Shown here: one piece after another, positions 37,602 to 45,286 of the stretch
Layout of the letters: every line of letters begins with the position of its first letter
Numbering within the stretch: the first letter of the stretch is position 1
Assembly (NCBI GenBank): GCA_003695915.1
Contig: RFGF01000034.1
Coordinates: 1 to 58,285 of the forward strand
Reading direction: 5' to 3'
Origin: Nitrospirota bacterium
Lineage (GTDB): Bacteria; Nitrospirota; Nitrospiria; Nitrospirales; UBA8639
Length of the DNA stretch: 58,285 bases
Notes under the pieces: model-generated
Told to the model about the DNA's origin: nothing
Databases searched by the model: none
What the model saw: only the letters and a program-made list of their open reading frames with translations
Program-made: the position numbers and the translations under genes

Positions 37602-38189
37602 ATGAGCAAGGAATTACCGATTGTTTCGGCCCCGCAACCCGAGGAAAAGCCGCAATCCGAGCCCGCGTTGTACTCTCGCGTCTTTTGTCTCCGAGAGGAT
37701 AGTCCCCCTCTTCGCTTGCTATTGGATTTCTTGAAGTCCAAAAATCATGTGCCGCTAGTCCCGAAAATGGATCCTGCGGCACTCGATGATTGGGATTGGG
37801 TGCAGATTTCGCTCGGCTACCAACGCGAGCGCAAGCCGATCCAATTGTTTTGCATCCGAGATCGCGGAAGCTACAAAGATGTTTTCGAGGCTGAACAGAC
37901 GGCGTTTTTGAATCGATTGGCCGTCTACGACAATGAAGAAGGCCAAATTGCTCGGGATTTTGTCCGACGGGCTCGGTTTATCGCCACGACACGGATGTTG
38001 AAAAACGACATGACCGAAGAAGGATACGATTTCAACGGATGGATTCTAGAATTCTTTCAAGAAAACTGTAACGGCATCGTTCAAATTGATGAACGAGGAT
38101 TCTTTTCGCCGCGCGGGGAACTAGTCGTGGATATGGAAGAAACGGTGGAGAGCGAAGAGGATGCGATTCCCCATTCTGGAACTTCATAA
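37602..38189 (+). CDS. Hypothetical soluble protein
   Basis: 195 residues, not recognised. No signal peptide or membrane segment; acidic overall, with a WDWVQISLGYQRERKPIQLF strand region near 62-80, a helical middle and an acidic C-terminal tail (MEETVESEEDA). AAGGAG six bases before the ATG supports 37602 over 37596. The 3' end overlaps the convergent amidohydrolase by six bases. Confidence 0.7.
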   Translation: MSKELPIVSAPQPEEKPQSEPALYSRVFCLREDSPPLRLLLDFLKSKNHVPLVPKMDPAALDDWDWVQISLGYQRERKPIQLFCIRDRGSYKDVFEAEQTAFLNRLAVYDNEEGQIARDFVRRARFIATTRMLKNDMTEEGYDFNGWILEFFQENCNGIVQIDERGFFSPRGELVVDMEETVESEEDAIPHSGTS

Positions 38190-39509
38190 CCCTCCTAACC
38201 CGCATCGACGATCGTCGTTCAGCGCCTCGACAACACAACTCCTAAATGTGCGTTGTGGCAGGGCCGCCAGCCCGCCGCGATAGCCGGTCCCGTCTTTGAT
38301 CACCTCGACGAGGGCTCCCTGTCCTAACCGATCGGGGTACTCGATGACGTTCTGGTTGCACACCAAGAGATCTGCTCGTTTCCCTGGCGTAAGAGTTCCT
38401 GCATCGTCTTGGCCGATGTGCGCAGCGGCCAATCCTGTTGCACCATGCCACGCCGCCAAGGGTGGGAGGCCGTCTTTGATCAAAGAGACGAGCTCCATAT
38501 AATTTCGTCCGTGCATACCTGGTAAAACAGGATCTGTTCCGGCTAACAAGGGCAGGCCGCTTCGATACGCAATGTCCACGGCCCGGGAGTGGACCGCTGC
38601 CACTTGGAGCACTTTTTCACGAACGAAGGGATCGAGGTCGGGCGCGTCGACAAGCGCCTGGCTGATCCATGAGGTGGGTGTCACGATACATCCTTTGGCA
38701 TAGGCCTGTTCGGCCAGCGCTTCATCCAGATACGATATGTGTTGAATATCTTTCACCCCATGGGCGATCGCGAGGGCAATGCCTTGGCGGCTGTGGGCGT
38801 GCGCCGCCACATAGAGGCCCCGAGCGGCCGCTTCATCGCAGATCGCATCGAGTTCCGCGGCGGTGAAATCTCGATGTTCCAGTTTGTCGGTGGGGGAGAC
38901 GACACCGGGGCTTGCACAGATTTTGATCAAATCGGCCCCGCAGGCGGCGATCTCTCGGACGCGTTTTCGGCATGCCCATGGTCCATCAACAATGCTCGAA
39001 GGCCGGCCAGGTCCAGGTGGCCACAGGCGCGAAACTTCCCCGCAACAGCGATCGGGACCTCGGAAATCCGCATGCCCTCCGGTGGTCGAAAGCATGCAAA
39101 TGGCCAGCTTGAGGCGAGGCCCGATCATATACCCGGCCTCTACCCAACGTTTGAGCACGTGCGTCGCTCCGCCCACGTCTCGCAGCGTCGTCACCCCACC
39201 GTCGACCAGCGTGGTATGGAGGATTCGTTCGGCATAGAGCAATCCAGCCGGAGCATTCATGCGCTCGAGCTCCTCGCGCCGTATGCCGAAGAGCATGATA
39301 TGGCCGTGGCAATCGATAAGGCCCGGTGTCACCGTATAGTCCGTGCACTCGATCCGACACGTACCGGATTGTGTGGGACGATGCGGATCGTGTGGATGAA
39401 TCGCTTGGATTTTTCCCTGGTCGATCCACACATCGACGTGATGATGGATCGCGGCTTCGGTGGCCGAGGTGCCGTCATATAAGGTCTGAATATTCGAAAG
39501 CACGATCAT
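38184..39509 (-). CDS. Amidohydrolase-family metal-dependent hydrolase
   Basis: 441 residues of the imidazolonepropionase/prolidase-like amidohydrolase group. TPGLIDCHGHIMLFG (HxH metal site) near 60, THVLKRW-type helices, YVAAHAHSRQGIALAI (HxH/second metal His), VKDIQHISYLD and LAGTDPVLPG (final metal Asp). Length and order suit enzymes that cleave amides, imides or Xaa-Pro dipeptides. GGGAGAGG precedes the ATG at 39509; the longer ORF to 39734 would run into the ECF promoter and is rejected. Substrate unknown. Confidence 0.88.
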   Translation of the reverse strand: MIVLSNIQTLYDGTSATEAAIHHHVDVWIDQGKIQAIHPHDPHRPTQSGTCRIECTDYTVTPGLIDCHGHIMLFGIRREELERMNAPAGLLYAERILHTTLVDGGVTTLRDVGGATHVLKRWVEAGYMIGPRLKLAICMLSTTGGHADFRGPDRCCGEVSRLWPPGPGRPSSIVDGPWACRKRVREIAACGADLIKICASPGVVSPTDKLEHRDFTAAELDAICDEAAARGLYVAAHAHSRQGIALAIAHGVKDIQHISYLDEALAEQAYAKGCIVTPTSWISQALVDAPDLDPFVREKVLQVAAVHSRAVDIAYRSGLPLLAGTDPVLPGMHGRNYMELVSLIKDGLPPLAAWHGATGLAAAHIGQDDAGTLTPGKRADLLVCNQNVIEYPDRLGQGALVEVIKDGTGYRGGLAALPQRTFRSCVVEALNDDRRCGLGGL

Positions 39510-39631
39510 GGTAGTGACCTCTCCCTGTTCGTTCTTCGTCGAATACCCGAGGATAGGATGGAATGGATTGACCTGTACCGGAAGTCGGGGGAGTTTGGCA
39601 ACCGGATGGACAACAGACGGACATCTTGTCA

Positions 39632-39659
39632 GGAACCGTGTCAACCTTTTGTGATCTGA
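39632..39659 (+). promoter_or_regulatory. ECF (sigma-E type) promoter
   Basis: GGAAC at 39632-39636 and TCTGA at 39655-39659. Counted as GAACCG, 16 bases, TCTGA, this agrees with the E. coli sigma-E consensus GAACTT-N16-TCTGA at four of six -35 bases and all -10 bases. It gives a leader of about 60 bases to the repeat-protein gene, four genes ahead of DUF3106 and directly upstream of an ECF sigma gene. Confidence 0.6.
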
Positions 39660-39726
39660 TGCGTTTCCATGGACAGTGCGACTGAGGCTCTCGTCGTCTA
39701 ACCGTACACAAAAAAGGAGGCAAACT

Positions 39727-40317
39727 ATGAACACATGTCGTTGGATGCTGGTCAGTGGATTGATGGTGATTCTGGCCGTTCCGGTGTGGGGGGAAGATCC
39801 AGGAGACCGGATTGACCGGCACTTGGATCGCGTTGGGGATCGTATCGACGAGCAGCTTGATCGAGCCGGGGAACGAATTCGGGATCGCCTGGATCAACGT
39901 GGGGATCGCATCGACGAGCGGTTTGATCGGCACGGAGACCGGATGGAAGATCGGTTCGATCGCCAGGGAGCACGGATCAACGAGCGATTGGATCAAAAGG
40001 CTCGACGCGCGGCGGAGGCCGGGAAGGATGACCTGGCTGACCGGCTCGACCGGAAAGGCGACCGGATCGAACATCGATTTGAGCGCAAAGGCGATCGCAT
40101 CGATCGACGGTTGGATCGAAAGGGTGAGAGTATTGATCGTCGATTGGATCGAAAAGGGGCCCAGATCGAACGCCGGCTCGACCGAAAAGGCGATCGGATC
40201 GATGCCCGTCTCGATCGCACAGGCGATCGCATCGAGCGCCGATTGGATCGACATCCCGTCCAGAGTCGGAAGCCGGTTCGTCACCATCGGATCCGGCCCC
40301 ACCGGGGCATGCGTTAA
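39727..40317 (+). CDS. Secreted protein of twelve 11-residue Arg/Asp repeats
   Basis: 196 residues. Signal peptide 1-22 (WMLVSGLMVILAVPVWG). Residues 27-92 are six 11-mers (e.g. DRIDRHLDRVG, DRIDERFDRHG); 93-111 an interruption (RRAAEAGKDDLA, then DRLDRKG); 112-177 six more (DRIDRRLDRKG, AQIERRLDRKG); 178-196 a His/Arg tail. The pattern is [D/E]RI[D/E]xR[L/F]DRxG, hydrophobic at positions 3 and 7, with Gly at 11. This suggests short amphipathic helices or a hendecad coil with extreme alternating charge. AAAAAGGAGG supports the ATG. First gene of the ECF module. Function unknown. Confidence 0.8.
   Translation: MNTCRWMLVSGLMVILAVPVWGEDPGDRIDRHLDRVGDRIDEQLDRAGERIRDRLDQRGDRIDERFDRHGDRMEDRFDRQGARINERLDQKARRAAEAGKDDLADRLDRKGDRIEHRFERKGDRIDRRLDRKGESIDRRLDRKGAQIERRLDRKGDRIDARLDRTGDRIERRLDRHPVQSRKPVRHHRIRPHRGMR
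39805..40257 (+). repeat. 33-bp tandem coding repeats
   Basis: The 11-residue protein repeats correspond to a 33-base period, six units, a 57-base interruption and six units. Because 33 is a multiple of 3 and the units are rich in GATCG-type words, stop codons are suppressed on the opposite strand too. Confidence 0.8.
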
Positions 40318-40412
40318 ATGAATGAACCCGGACCGATGCCCACGTCGCGTCATGGAGGCGAATCCGGTGGGCTGGGTGCAGAGGGAGGCACGGGATTTTC
40401 GATCAGGGCGCA

Positions 40413-40940
40413 ATGGACCGGTTCCTGGCTGGCGTGGAGCGTCGTGCCTTCCGCATGGCCCAACTCGCCGTCCGGAATCGCGATGATGCGCTGGACATTG
40501 TGCAAGAAGCCATGGCTGTACTCGTTCAGCGATATCGGGAGCGAGAGGCTTCCGAGTGGGGACCGCTGTTTTATCGAATTCTTCAAAGCCGTGTCGCCGA
40601 TTGGCATCGACGGCAATGGGTTCGCACGCGGTGGCGAACATGGTTTGCGGGATCGCAAGACGATGATCTCTCATCTCGCGAGGAATCTTGGGAGCAACTC
40701 CCAGATGTGGGCATGCCGGATCCATCTGAAGCGCTTGCCCAGCGACGCGCCGCAGCCGCGATAGAATGTGCGTTGCGGGAATTGCCGCTCCGCCAGCGCC
40801 AAGCCTTCCTCTTGCGCGCCTGGGAAGGCTATGATGTGGCACGAACGGCACAGGCGATGGGCTGTTCAGAAGGCAGCGTCAAAACGCATTATTCAAGGGC
40901 TGTGCAAGCTTTGCGCAAGCGGTTGGCCGACCATGTCTGA
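40413..40940 (+). CDS. ECF-type RNA polymerase sigma factor
   Basis: 175 residues. Region 2 at about 1-60: RMAQLAVRNRDDALDIVQEAMAVLV and PLFYRILQSRVADWHRRQ (the DxxQE and 2.4 helix). A linker, then region 4 at about 110-170: LPLRQRQAFLLRAWEGYDVARTAQAMGCSEGSVKTHYSRAVQAL, a clean helix-turn-helix for the -35. It probably recognises the promoter at 39632. The ATG at 40413 is preceded by AGGGCGCA. Its stop overlaps the next gene's start by eight bases, so the two are translated together. Confidence 0.93.
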   Translation: MDRFLAGVERRAFRMAQLAVRNRDDALDIVQEAMAVLVQRYREREASEWGPLFYRILQSRVADWHRRQWVRTRWRTWFAGSQDDDLSSREESWEQLPDVGMPDPSEALAQRRAAAAIECALRELPLRQRQAFLLRAWEGYDVARTAQAMGCSEGSVKTHYSRAVQALRKRLADHV

Positions 40941-41349
40941 TGATCCCTTGAAGTCGATTTCCTCTCCTGGTGTTCCACCGACTACGTCGCCCAGTGAACA
41001 TGACGACCGTGCACTCGCTGCACATGTAATTCGATATCTCGATCAGAGTGTAGAACGACTCGATCCGACCACGCTGGCACGGTTGCACCGGGCTCGGGCT
41101 GAAGCGGTCAACGTTCGATCTCGAGCAGCAAAGCTCCGCACCAGAGTCTGGTGGGTCCCAGCTTCTGTGGCCACGGCACTGATCGTCGCGGCGCTGACCT
41201 TGTGGGTGTGGAGTCCGAAGGAGCAGCACGATCAAAATCGTGTTCTGCCTTTCGAGGATGTGGACCTCTTAGCCAGTGCCGAGCCGTTCGAGTTCTATGA
41301 AGACCTCGAGTTTTATCACTGGCTGTCGGCAGAAGATCATGCCGGCTAA
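40933..41349 (+). CDS. Single-pass membrane protein (DUF3619-like), candidate anti-sigma
   Basis: 138 residues: an N-terminal cytosolic part with the helix RALAAHVIRYLDQSVERLDP..LARLHRARAEA, one transmembrane segment at about 75-93 (WWVPASVATALIVAALTLWVW), and an acidic periplasmic tail of about 45 residues (ASAEPFEFYEDLEFYHWL). The layout and position after a sigma gene match the DUF3619 proteins of sigma-DUF3619-DUF3106 clusters in proteobacteria. No zinc anti-sigma motif, so anti-sigma function is inference from position and topology. Confidence 0.75.
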   Translation: MSDDPLKSISSPGVPPTTSPSEHDDRALAAHVIRYLDQSVERLDPTTLARLHRARAEAVNVRSRAAKLRTRVWWVPASVATALIVAALTLWVWSPKEQHDQNRVLPFEDVDLLASAEPFEFYEDLEFYHWLSAEDHAG

Positions 41350-41635
41350 TCACTGGGTCATGACTGGACTCTTGCTGCTTTTGGGGACGCCATGGGCTCT
41401 GGCTGACGATGCTTCGCTTACTGGGTCACCGAATTTGGAACTGCTCGAGTTCCTTGGTGCATGGGAGACGGCGGATGGTGAGTGGATCGATCCCCTCGAT
41501 CTGACAGAGATGGAACCGCTGGCGGGACAACGAGGGGCGAGTGAGACGAGCGCGGGACGGGAAAGCCACCAAGGCGAGTTCGATGTCGATCGACGTGAAA
41601 ATGATCATAGTACCTCATACCAAGAAACTGAGTGA
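41339..41635 (+). CDS. Small secreted acidic protein
   Basis: 98 residues from the ATG at 41339, which overlaps the previous stop by 11 bases. Signal peptide 1-23 (WVMTGLLLLLGTPWALA). The short motif LELLEFLGAWETADGEWIDP follows, seen next to sigma/DUF3619 clusters. The remainder is polar, Glu/Asp-rich and probably unstructured. It may be the acidic partner of the two Arg-rich secreted proteins flanking it; this is inference. Confidence 0.7.
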   Translation: MPANHWVMTGLLLLLGTPWALADDASLTGSPNLELLEFLGAWETADGEWIDPLDLTEMEPLAGQRGASETSAGRESHQGEFDVDRRENDHSTSYQETE

Positions 41636-41636
41636 C

Positions 41637-42164
41637 ATGAGTCAACGTCTGCTCATGGCAGTTGTCGGATTCCTCCTTGTTGTCGGAAACGTGGGAGCTG
41701 AGGAGTCGTTGTCCTCGATTCCGTGGCATCATTTAAGTAGCGAAGAACGGCGTCTGCTTGAACCCTTTGTCGATCGGTGGGATCAATTGCCTCCCCAACG
41801 GCAGCACCGCTTGCGCAAGGGAGCCAAGCGATGGCTGGCCTTGACTCCCGAAGAACGAGCGCACATGAAACGACGCTTCGAGCAATGGAAAGCACTGCCT
41901 CCGGGCAAACGTGCACGTATTCGCCGATGGTTTCATGAGTTTCGCCAGCTTCCTCCGGCCGTGCGCAAACAACTGCGCGAAAAACGAGAATGGTTCAACA
42001 CCCTCCCTCCGGAACGGCGAAAAGCGTTGCGTGACCGATGGAACAATTTGCCGCCGGAGAAACGGCGTGAGTTCAGACGACGATTCGGGAACGAGCGATT
42101 GCCGAACCGTCCCCTCGATCGACCGCGTCACCCACGACCTCACCGCATGCCTCGTGGTCGCTAA
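41637..42164 (+). CDS. Secreted Arg-rich DUF3106-like protein
   Basis: 175 residues. Signal peptide 1-22 (LLMAVVGFLLVVGNVGA). The mature part is built of about six 19-20-residue helical repeats that each contain 'L(P/T)P..R' and 'W': LSSEERRLLEPFVDRWDQLP, LTPEERAHMKRRFEQWKALP, LPPAVRKQLREKREWFNTLP, LPPEKRREFRRRF. This is the DUF3106 pattern. The last 25 residues are Arg/Pro/His-rich. It starts two bases after the previous stop. Last gene of the ECF module. Confidence 0.85.
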   Translation: MSQRLLMAVVGFLLVVGNVGAEESLSSIPWHHLSSEERRLLEPFVDRWDQLPPQRQHRLRKGAKRWLALTPEERAHMKRRFEQWKALPPGKRARIRRWFHEFRQLPPAVRKQLREKREWFNTLPPERRKALRDRWNNLPPEKRREFRRRFGNERLPNRPLDRPRHPRPHRMPRGR

Positions 42165-42400: not shown

Positions 42401-45286
42401 ATGAAGAAAAGCCCTCTGGAAATGCTGTTGCCGCTTGGTGATCGATTCGAATCTCGGCATCTCGGGCCGACCGACGAGGATATCAGCGAGATGCTGGGGA
42501 TCTTGGGATTTTCCTCTCTGGATGATCTGGTTCGGGCAGCCATTCCCGAAGCAATTCGTCTTCGACGACCGTTGGAGATCCCTCCGGCTCGGAGCGAGTA
42601 CGAAGTGCTCACAGAGCTTCGTGCGTTGGCGAATCGGAACCAGACCTGCCGGTCGTTCATCGGCATGGGCTATTACGATTGCCTGACTCCCCCGGTCATT
42701 CTGCGCAATGTGTTGGAAAATCCAGCCTGGTACACCCAATACACGCCCTATCAAGCCGAGATTGCTCAAGGACGCCTGGAAGCCTTGCTCACTTTTCAAA
42801 CCATGGTGGCCGATCTCACGGGGTTGCCCTTAGCGAATGCGTCCTTGCTCGACGAAGCGACAGCGGCGGCTGAAGCGATGCTCATGTGTCGAGCGATCGT
42901 CGGGCGCGAGCGGGACACGTTTGTGGTCGCCACCGACTGTCATCCCCAAACGCTCGCAGTCTTGCAGACCCGAGCTCATGCTTTAGGAGTTCGCATTCGC
43001 GTCGACGAGATCGGGAAGTTGGAAGACGAATTGCCTCGGGCCTTCGGAGCCCTGGTCCAATATCCGACGACCGATGGGCGGATCGACGACTATCAACCGA
43101 TCGCAGACCGGTTACATACGCATGGGGCTTTATGCGTGGTCGCCACCGATTTGCTGGCCTTGACCTTGCTTCGTCCACCGGGTGAGTTCGGTGCGGATAT
43201 CGCTGTGGGTTCCAGTCAACGGTTTGGCGTCCCAATGGGGTTTGGGGGTCCTCATGCGGCTTTCCTGGCGACGCGGGAGGCCTATAAGCGACAGATTCCC
43301 GGACGTCTTGTTGGCGTCTCGCGAGATGCGCGCGGTCGCACGGCCTATCGATTGGCCTTGCAAACTCGCGAGCAGCATATTCGTCGAGATCGTGCCACCA
43401 GCAATATTTGTACGGCTCAAGTGTTGCCTGCCATTCTGGCCGCCATGTATGCGGTGTATCATGGAGGCCAGGGGCTCAAACGCATTGCCGAACGGGTCCA
43501 TGCCTTGACGTGCCTGGTCGCTGAAGGGGTGCGTCGATTGGGCCACGAAGTCAGGGCCGGGCACTTTTTCGATACGGTGCGAATCCGGCCACTGTCCGCG
43601 CCACGGGTGCTCGATCGGGCACGAGCCAAACGCATCAATCTGCGATATTTCGACGACCACACGGTCGGTCTGTCGCTCGACGAGGCGACCACGGTCGACG
43701 AGGTGGTGAGCCTCCTGGAGGTCTTCTGCGAAGAACCTGCTGTGCCGTTTTCCATTGCGGATCTGATCGCCGATTTCTCGTCCAAGATCCCGCCTTCGCT
43801 TGCACGGACCTCTCCGTATCTCACGCACGAGGTGTTTACGCGGTATCACTCGGAACACGAAATGCTGCGCTATCTGTATTCGTTGCAAGCACGAGATTTG
43901 TCGTTGGTGCATTCGATGATACCGCTGGGCTCGTGCACGATGAAGCTCAATGCAACCGTGGAAATGATGCCCGTCACGTGGCCGGAGTTCGCACGGATTC
44001 ATCCGTTTGTCCCCTCTGAACAGACGAAGGGCTATGCCGAGCTGTTCCGTCAACTGGAAACCTGGTTGGCGGAAATCACGGGGTTTGCCGCCGTTTCCCT
44101 GCAGCCCAATGCAGGATCGCAAGGCGAACTCGCGGGGCTTATGGTGATTCGGGCGTATCATGCTTCGCGTGGCGAGGCTCATCGTCGGATCTGCTTGATT
44201 CCCGTTTCTGCGCATGGGACGAATCCGGCGAGCGCGGTGATGGCGGGGCTCACCGTCGTCTCGGTAGCGTGCGACGACAACGGCAACATCGATGTCGGCG
44301 ATTTGCGTGCGAAGGCCAGTCAGTACGCGAGCTCATTGGCCGCGCTGATGGTGACCTATCCTTCCACACATGGCGTGTTCGAACCGACCATCCGCGAAGT
44401 GTGTCAGATCGTGCATGAGTACGGGGGACAGGTGTATTTGGATGGAGCCAACATGAATGCCATGCTGGGGCTCTGTCGTCCAGCCGACATGGGAGCCGAC
44501 GTCTGCCACCTCAATCTGCATAAAACGTTTTGCATTCCCCATGGGGGAGGAGGGCCGGGAATGGGGCCAATCGGCGTGGCCTCTCATTTGGCCCCCTTTT
44601 TGCCTGGGCATCCCATACGAACGGACGTGGGAGGTGCTCAGGCTATCGGACCCGTTGCCGCGGCTCCCTATGGCAGTCCGAGTATTCTACCGATCTCATG
44701 GGCGTTCATCAGACTGATGGGGGCCGCTGGGCTCAAAAAAGCATCCGAAGTCGCTATCTTGAACGCCAATTATATGGCCAAAAAGTTGGACAAATATTAT
44801 ACCGTGCTCTTCCGGGGCGCGAACGGTCTGTCTGCCCACGAGTTCATTTTGGATCTTCGGCCTTTCAAAAAATCGGCCGGCATCGAAGTTGAAGATGTCG
44901 CCAAGCGGTTGATGGATTATGGATTTCATGCCCCGACGATCTCATGGCCGGTACCGGGGACGATGATGATCGAACCCACCGAAAGCGAGTCCAAATCGGA
45001 AATGGATCGCTATTGCGAAGCCTTGATTGCCATTCGCCAAGAGATTGCAGCGGTCGAAGAAGGTCGATGGCCTCGTGACGATAATCCTCTCAAGCACGCC
45101 CCCCATACGATCGAGGCGATCACGGACTCCGACTGGCGCCATCCGTATGCGCGCGAACAAGCCGTGTTTCCGTTGCCGTGGCTGCGCCAGCGAAAGTTTT
45201 GGCCAGCCGTTTCCCGGATCGACAACGCGTACGGCGATCGGCACCTGGTATGTACCTGTGCTCCGGTCGGATTGGATTGCGCCTGA
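42401..45286 (+). CDS. gcvP: Glycine dehydrogenase (decarboxylating), P protein
   Basis: Decarboxylates glycine and loads the aminomethyl group on GcvH. The 961-residue single-chain form with N- and C-terminal aminotransferase-like halves. [14 protein letters not shown] at the N-terminus; [11 protein letters not shown]; the second half has [14 protein letters not shown], and the PLP lysine lies in [18 protein letters not shown] near residue 708. No gcvT or gcvH is adjacent, and no glycine riboswitch was recognised in the 236-base leader (42165-42400). Confidence 0.96.

Follow-up and report, generated by a model that had tools for sequence, protein, structure and literature searches.

A conserved ECF sigma-factor operon led by an exported hendecad-repeat protein in a Nitrospirota bacterium, and its putative autoregulatory circuit

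Gene Content and Layout of the Locus

The window, the whole stretch of 58,285 nucleotides analysed here, belongs to a Nitrospirota genome of 3.7 Mb that is 99% complete. Five consecutive plus-strand genes located between positions 39727 and 42164 form one operon in it, coding, in this order, for a secreted hendecad-repeat protein, an ECF sigma factor, a DUF3619 protein with a single transmembrane segment, a small acidic exported protein, and a basic exported DUF3106 protein (Table 1). The last four genes are tightly packed, successively joined by an 8-bp overlap, an 11-bp overlap and a 1-bp gap, while the repeat and sigma genes lie 95 bp apart; a sequence-only reading had described all five genes as consecutive and overlapping or near-overlapping, and their succession is confirmed. 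The start of the sigma gene at 40413 is the sole in-frame ATG/GTG/TTG/CTG codon found in a scan begun at 40250.

Table 1. Coordinates of the features described for the module, its neighbours, and related fusion genes (positions in the window, unless a locus is indicated).
Feature	Position	Strand	Basis or remark
Divergent amidohydrolase, left-hand neighbour outside the module	38184-39509	-	same side in G016, G019, G041
Promoter element: TGTCAACC (39639-39646), N14, GCGTT (39661-39665)	39639-39665	+	conserved ahead of repeat/sigma genes in diverse phyla
Secreted hendecad-repeat protein, 196 aa, signal-peptide-like N-terminus, twelve 11-mers	39727-40317	+	homologues ahead of sigma
ECF sigma factor NF006550/PRK09047, 175 aa	40413-40940	+	NF006550 and Sigma70_r4_2 scores
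DUF3619 protein, 138 aa, one TM, probable anti-sigma	40933-41349	+	PF12279 score
Small acidic exported protein, 98 aa	41339-41635	+	conserved core EFLEFLGxWxxxxGEWIDP
Basic exported DUF3106 protein, 175 aa	41637-42164	+	PF11304 score
GcvP glycine dehydrogenase, right-hand neighbour outside the module	42401-45286	+	same side in G019, G041
DUF3619-DUF3106 fusion ORFs	L036:6522-7472, L037:2684-3835, L043:6321-7472, L058:1902-2906		

The amidohydrolase on the left has the Xaa-Pro dipeptidase NF051886 as its nearest family, with 181.8 bits that stay far under the cut-off of 500, and is kept as a neighbour in three other genera. A 458-aa ORF running antisense to the repeat gene (39475-40851, minus strand) was taken, by eye, as a by-product of the repeats.

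Regarding the sigma factor, residues 1-174 match NF006550/PRK09047 with 234.6 bits (curated NCBIfam cut-off 173), and the Sigma70_r4_2 domain is recognized with 62.2 bits (cut-off 25.7). Its closest named match is a sigma factor of Nitrospira sp. (60%), and in the phylogenetic tree the sigma factors of genomes G016, G019, and G041 form a clade (99/88), the rest of the tree being mainly proteobacterial. No mention of DUF3106, DUF3619, or PRK09047 was found in the literature searched; the ECF module is well conserved, yet apparently unstudied.

Conservation of the Module

Within a family of 49 genomes, a close homologue of the sigma factor is present in four genomes only, and those same four carry the repeat gene beside it. 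G016, G019, and G041 contain all five genes, with the repeat homologue directly upstream of sigma, the amidohydrolase to the left, and GcvP to the right where the contig reaches. The survey for conserved order in related genomes that had been proposed on the basis of the sequence alone finds the five genes in a syntenic position, flanked by amidohydrolase and GcvP. In G019, the locus is divided between two contigs: C88 (L164/L189) carries the promoter and the amidohydrolase, C180 (L084/L188) the remainder of the operon, and an IS30-like transposase sits at the contig break, suggesting an insertion element inside the leader gene.

A wider survey turned to other genomes and their 80 nearest sigma loci. 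DUF3106 is encoded in 75 of them, and DUF3619 in 59 when searched with a single sequence, and in nearly all of them with iterated profiles. The repeat protein appears in 22 of these loci, directly upstream of sigma in 21 and elsewhere in the remaining one, and is scattered across the sigma tree, on several of its branches, some relatives being devoid of it. A repeat gene in first position and the acidic protein had both been regarded as making this version of the module unusual; on the contrary, they recur, the former at the head of 21 of the 80 loci and the latter as a small conserved family.

The first-gene slot is itself variable, since in some loci it is taken by exported repeat proteins of other kinds, in which charged residues or glycine abound. 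The same promoter precedes other leader genes at L034:4756-5160, L007:4060-4700, and L029:5150-5930, and the alternative leader types comprise Gly-rich proteins with GRG/GKG repeats, His/Arg-rich proteins, and proteins with MSPEER repeats.

The Exported Repeat Protein

The repeat protein of the window consists of six 11-mers, a turn containing G99, and another six 11-mers. The turn is of the AGK/ANG (AxANG) type, and its glycine is invariant in the 25 aligned members, all of them built from 11-mer units of the LDxKGDRIxxR type and, except for one truncated call, all with a signal-peptide-like start. In nearly every member, GDRI-like units fall at positions -18, -29, -40 and so on before the turn glycine, and at +12, +23, +34 and so on after it, while the lengths of both arms co-vary (rho 0.83, n = 20, the relatedness of members being uncorrected). 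AlphaFold predicts helices at residues 25-97 and 101-175, with a pTM of 0.48 and moderate overall confidence. Considering (i) the turn glycine, (ii) the fixed 11-residue registers, (iii) the co-varying arms, and (iv) the predicted helices, the protein is most likely a helical hairpin, predicted to comprise two antiparallel hendecad helices of ~74 residues, whose length is estimated at ~11 nm for 1.5 angstrom per residue. Three gammaproteobacterial members appear to have two such hairpin units in tandem (L026 and L027, and partly L013). Comparison of the hairpin model with the PDB yielded no significant match, the weak rows to the helical hairpins of PspA and ESCRT-III being set aside.

No Pfam or NCBIfam cut-off is passed by the repeat protein. 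Its score for Apolipoprotein A1/A4/E (PF01442) is 40 bits, below the cut-off of 90, and 20 of the 25 members match this family weakly. Both share an 11-residue amphipathic helical repeat, but the repeat protein, unlike PF01442, has a charged repeat and a single central hairpin turn, and is an exported bacterial protein. The resemblance is likely convergent, a reflection of the 11-mer helix that provides no evidence of membership.

DUF3619, DUF3106, and the Acidic Protein

The DUF3619 protein scores 33.2 bits against PF12279 (gathering cut-off 22.2). Some 70 cytoplasmic residues precede its transmembrane segment, and the alignment of the family displays a conserved cytoplasmic helix of the LDxxTxxRLxxARxxAL type, a single membrane helix, and a periplasmic tail that is acidic and ends in EDLEFYxWL. 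The tail end, [DE]F[YF]xW, is found in 65 of 76 rows, relative to a shuffle rate of 0.002, several of the other rows being truncated. Zinc-binding class I anti-sigma factors (ZAS) are defined by an Hx3Cx2C motif (PMC7406223); the DUF3619 protein contains no cysteine and, hence, lacks this motif, and its comparison with PDB sequences gave no match to a solved anti-sigma factor. Topology, overlap with the sigma gene, position within the operon, and conserved linkage indicate that DUF3619 is a probable anti-sigma factor.

DUF3106 is assigned with 104.2 bits to PF11304 (gathering cut-off 24.3), and its AlphaFold model (mean pLDDT 87) contains about six short helices with a period of ~18 residues. 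The DUF3619 and DUF3106 genes are almost always adjacent, and in four betaproteobacterial loci, from MAGs, both proteins are fused in one polypeptide (Table 1); three of these four fusions were tested against Pfam, each scoring above both cut-offs. Because of these fusions, which constitute the best mechanistic evidence here gathered, DUF3106 more likely belongs on the periplasmic side of DUF3619, as a partner of the membrane anti-sigma factor, than acts as a free polyanion-binding effector. A Foldseek search with DUF3106 at E<=0.001 gave no match, CnrX, Spy, and CpxP not being among its matches. A CnrX/Spy/CpxP fold for DUF3106 is conceivable but at present unsupported, given this lack of a fold match and the detection of Metal_resist in only 2 of 42 members.

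Two other roles can be envisaged for DUF3106. According to the first, it would only be an effector or chaperone, DUF3619 would sense by itself, for example if its tail were cleaved in a regulated manner, and there would be no meaning in the fusions, which would be incidental. The strong conservation of the DUF3619 tail motif in its own right, separate genes being the rule (75 of 80), and the lack of a fold match to CnrX agree with this possibility, which nonetheless appears rather unlikely in view of four fusion loci that match both families over their full length and of the nearly constant adjacency of both genes. According to the second, advanced in the sequence-only reading, DUF3619 would hold the sigma factor, and the Arg-rich exported repeat protein and DUF3106 would be effectors that bind polyanions such as LPS, nucleic acid, or polyphosphate. 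Charge is its one argument: the mature DUF3106 and repeat proteins carry, respectively, net charges of +25 (pI about 11.9) and +12 (pI 10.9), and the other leader genes that share the promoter likewise encode charged exported proteins. On the contrary, the fusions connect DUF3106 with the regulator, the repeat protein alternates between acidic and basic residues so that it has only a modest net charge given its length, and the repeat proteins of relatives contain many LDNKGDRIE units, units that are not Arg-rich. We therefore consider an action on polyanions improbable.

No Pfam or NCBIfam family passes its cut-off for the small acidic protein. The proposal that its FLEFLG core might be homologous to, or a mimic of, the tail motif of DUF3619 was dropped upon a profile-comparison probability below 1%.

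Promoter Element and Its Occurrence in Genomes

When the regions preceding the repeat genes of distant bacteria were aligned, a shared element emerged, TGTCAACC-N14-GCGTT. In its strict form, TGTC(A/G)N-N15-17-GCGTT, it is present in 18 of 23 regions upstream of repeat genes (shuffle mean 0.01), and in a relaxed form in 22 of the 23 (shuffle mean 0.27). The GGAAC/TCTGA promoter originally suggested for the window occurs in just one of these 23 regions, the window's own, where it overlaps the conserved element sitting a few bases away, and it was replaced by the latter. Methylophilaceae show the variants TGTCGTC or TGTAGAC, and in relatives without the repeat gene the element can directly precede the sigma gene, while no recognisable promoter site was found in Rhodanobacter/Dyella loci. 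From this conservation we infer that the sigma factor recognises TGTCAACC-N14-GCGTT at its own operon, the transcript presumably starting at ~39671-39675. The literature search on TGTCAACC and sigma factors returned matches that, to judge by their titles and abstracts, concern other systems.

The exact element occurs once in the 3.7-Mb genome of the host, at the operon, and sites with up to two mismatches are there as frequent as for a reversed-pattern control (86 vs. 86), with no excess. Across 22 module-carrying genomes, 24 exact sites are found vs. 1 control site, most of them at the operon. In the 49-genome family, exact matches equal the control (5 vs. 5), so that their total is no measure of specificity and only positions at the operon carry weight; four of the five come from the four carriers of the module, where they are located at the module itself. 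An exact promoter-like site at G036:C123:10862-10888 (L192), in a genome without a close homologue of the sigma factor, is probably due to chance.

Further exact sites were observed in other genomes. One, at L184/L191, is a second TGTCAACC-N14-GCGTT site that precedes a different exported Arg/Glu-rich repeat protein (RQENRAERREDH repeats), and another, at L185/L190, is followed after 91 bases by the gene of a 594-aa lipoprotein that is DUF4382-like by eye. Such extra sites indicate that the regulon is not always a single operon, and weaker sites may exist as well. The extra sites would also fit a sigma factor with a broad envelope-stress regulon, reached through degenerate sites, this operon being merely its strongest target, but such control is unlikely considering that the sole exact site of the host genome is at the operon and that its mismatched sites do not outnumber the control. 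The best reading is that of a mostly single-operon circuit, with the operon's own exported proteins as main outputs.

A Proposed Autoregulatory Circuit

We propose, with a probability of roughly 0.6, that the module is a self-contained, autoregulated ECF operon in which DUF3619 is the anti-sigma factor, DUF3619 has periplasmic partners, and the repeat protein is the likely effector. The sigma factor would transcribe its own operon from TGTCAACC-N14-GCGTT and would be held by the helical cytoplasmic segment of DUF3619, while the basic DUF3106 protein, and perhaps also the small acidic protein, would be periplasmic sensing or modulating partners of DUF3619, as CnrX is for CnrY. A signal would free the sigma factor, and the operon would then make more of its exported proteins, the repeat protein first, which might serve as a rod, as a spacer, or for binding to surfaces, either in the periplasm or in the envelope. 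The gene set and its order, the conserved promoter, the single exact site in the host genome, the fusions, and the symmetry of the hairpin are directly read from sequence; from them we infer the holding of the sigma factor, the periplasmic regulation, the direction of control, and the effector role. A self-activated circuit whose sigma factor is held by a membrane protein had already been put forward in the sequence-only reading, and this core gains from the conserved order, the promoter at the operon head, and the fusions, its exact promoter and its claimed rarity having to be abandoned. Envelope stress is a plausible context for the operon.

The circuit resembles in its logic the CnrYXH system of Cupriavidus metallidurans, which comprises the ECF sigma factor CnrH, the short membrane anti-sigma factor CnrY, of the two-helix class II, whose two helices clamp the sigma factor, and the periplasmic CnrX, which senses metal (PMC4598750, PMC7406223). 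Both combine a clustered ECF sigma factor with a short membrane protein that has one transmembrane segment and a small cytoplasmic portion, and with a helical protein in the periplasm. Unlike CnrYXH, modules of the window type sometimes have their membrane and periplasmic proteins fused (DUF3619-DUF3106), and the window module has additional exported repeat and acidic proteins and appears to target the operon itself instead of an efflux system. Sequence or fold similarity between both systems is not detectable, and the likeness so far is one of logic and layout.

A more general proposal, which we hold only tentatively, is that these modules are ECF circuits of a dedicated kind: the sigma factor would serve essentially one operon, the DUF3619 anti-sigma factor and DUF3106 would be a trans-membrane pair, and the first gene would occupy a swappable slot for exported repeat proteins, whether hendecad hairpin rods, MSPEER-type helical, Gly-rich, or His/Arg-rich repeats. 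The circuit here proposed provides a concrete hypothesis for DUF3619, DUF3106, and the unnamed EFLEFLG protein, namely that they would act together as a single unit of transmembrane signalling under a defined promoter, and the survey would connect an ECF subfamily that is widespread but uncharacterised with one particular class of charged repeat proteins that are exported.

Proteobacterial NF006550/PRK09047-DUF3619-DUF3106 loci share with the window the sigma subfamily and the gene order and, in many cases, the promoter. The window copy differs in belonging to Nitrospirota and in its leading hendecad protein, which is absent from the Rhodanobacter/Dyella loci but is also found in Microbulbifer, Methylophilaceae, and other relatives.
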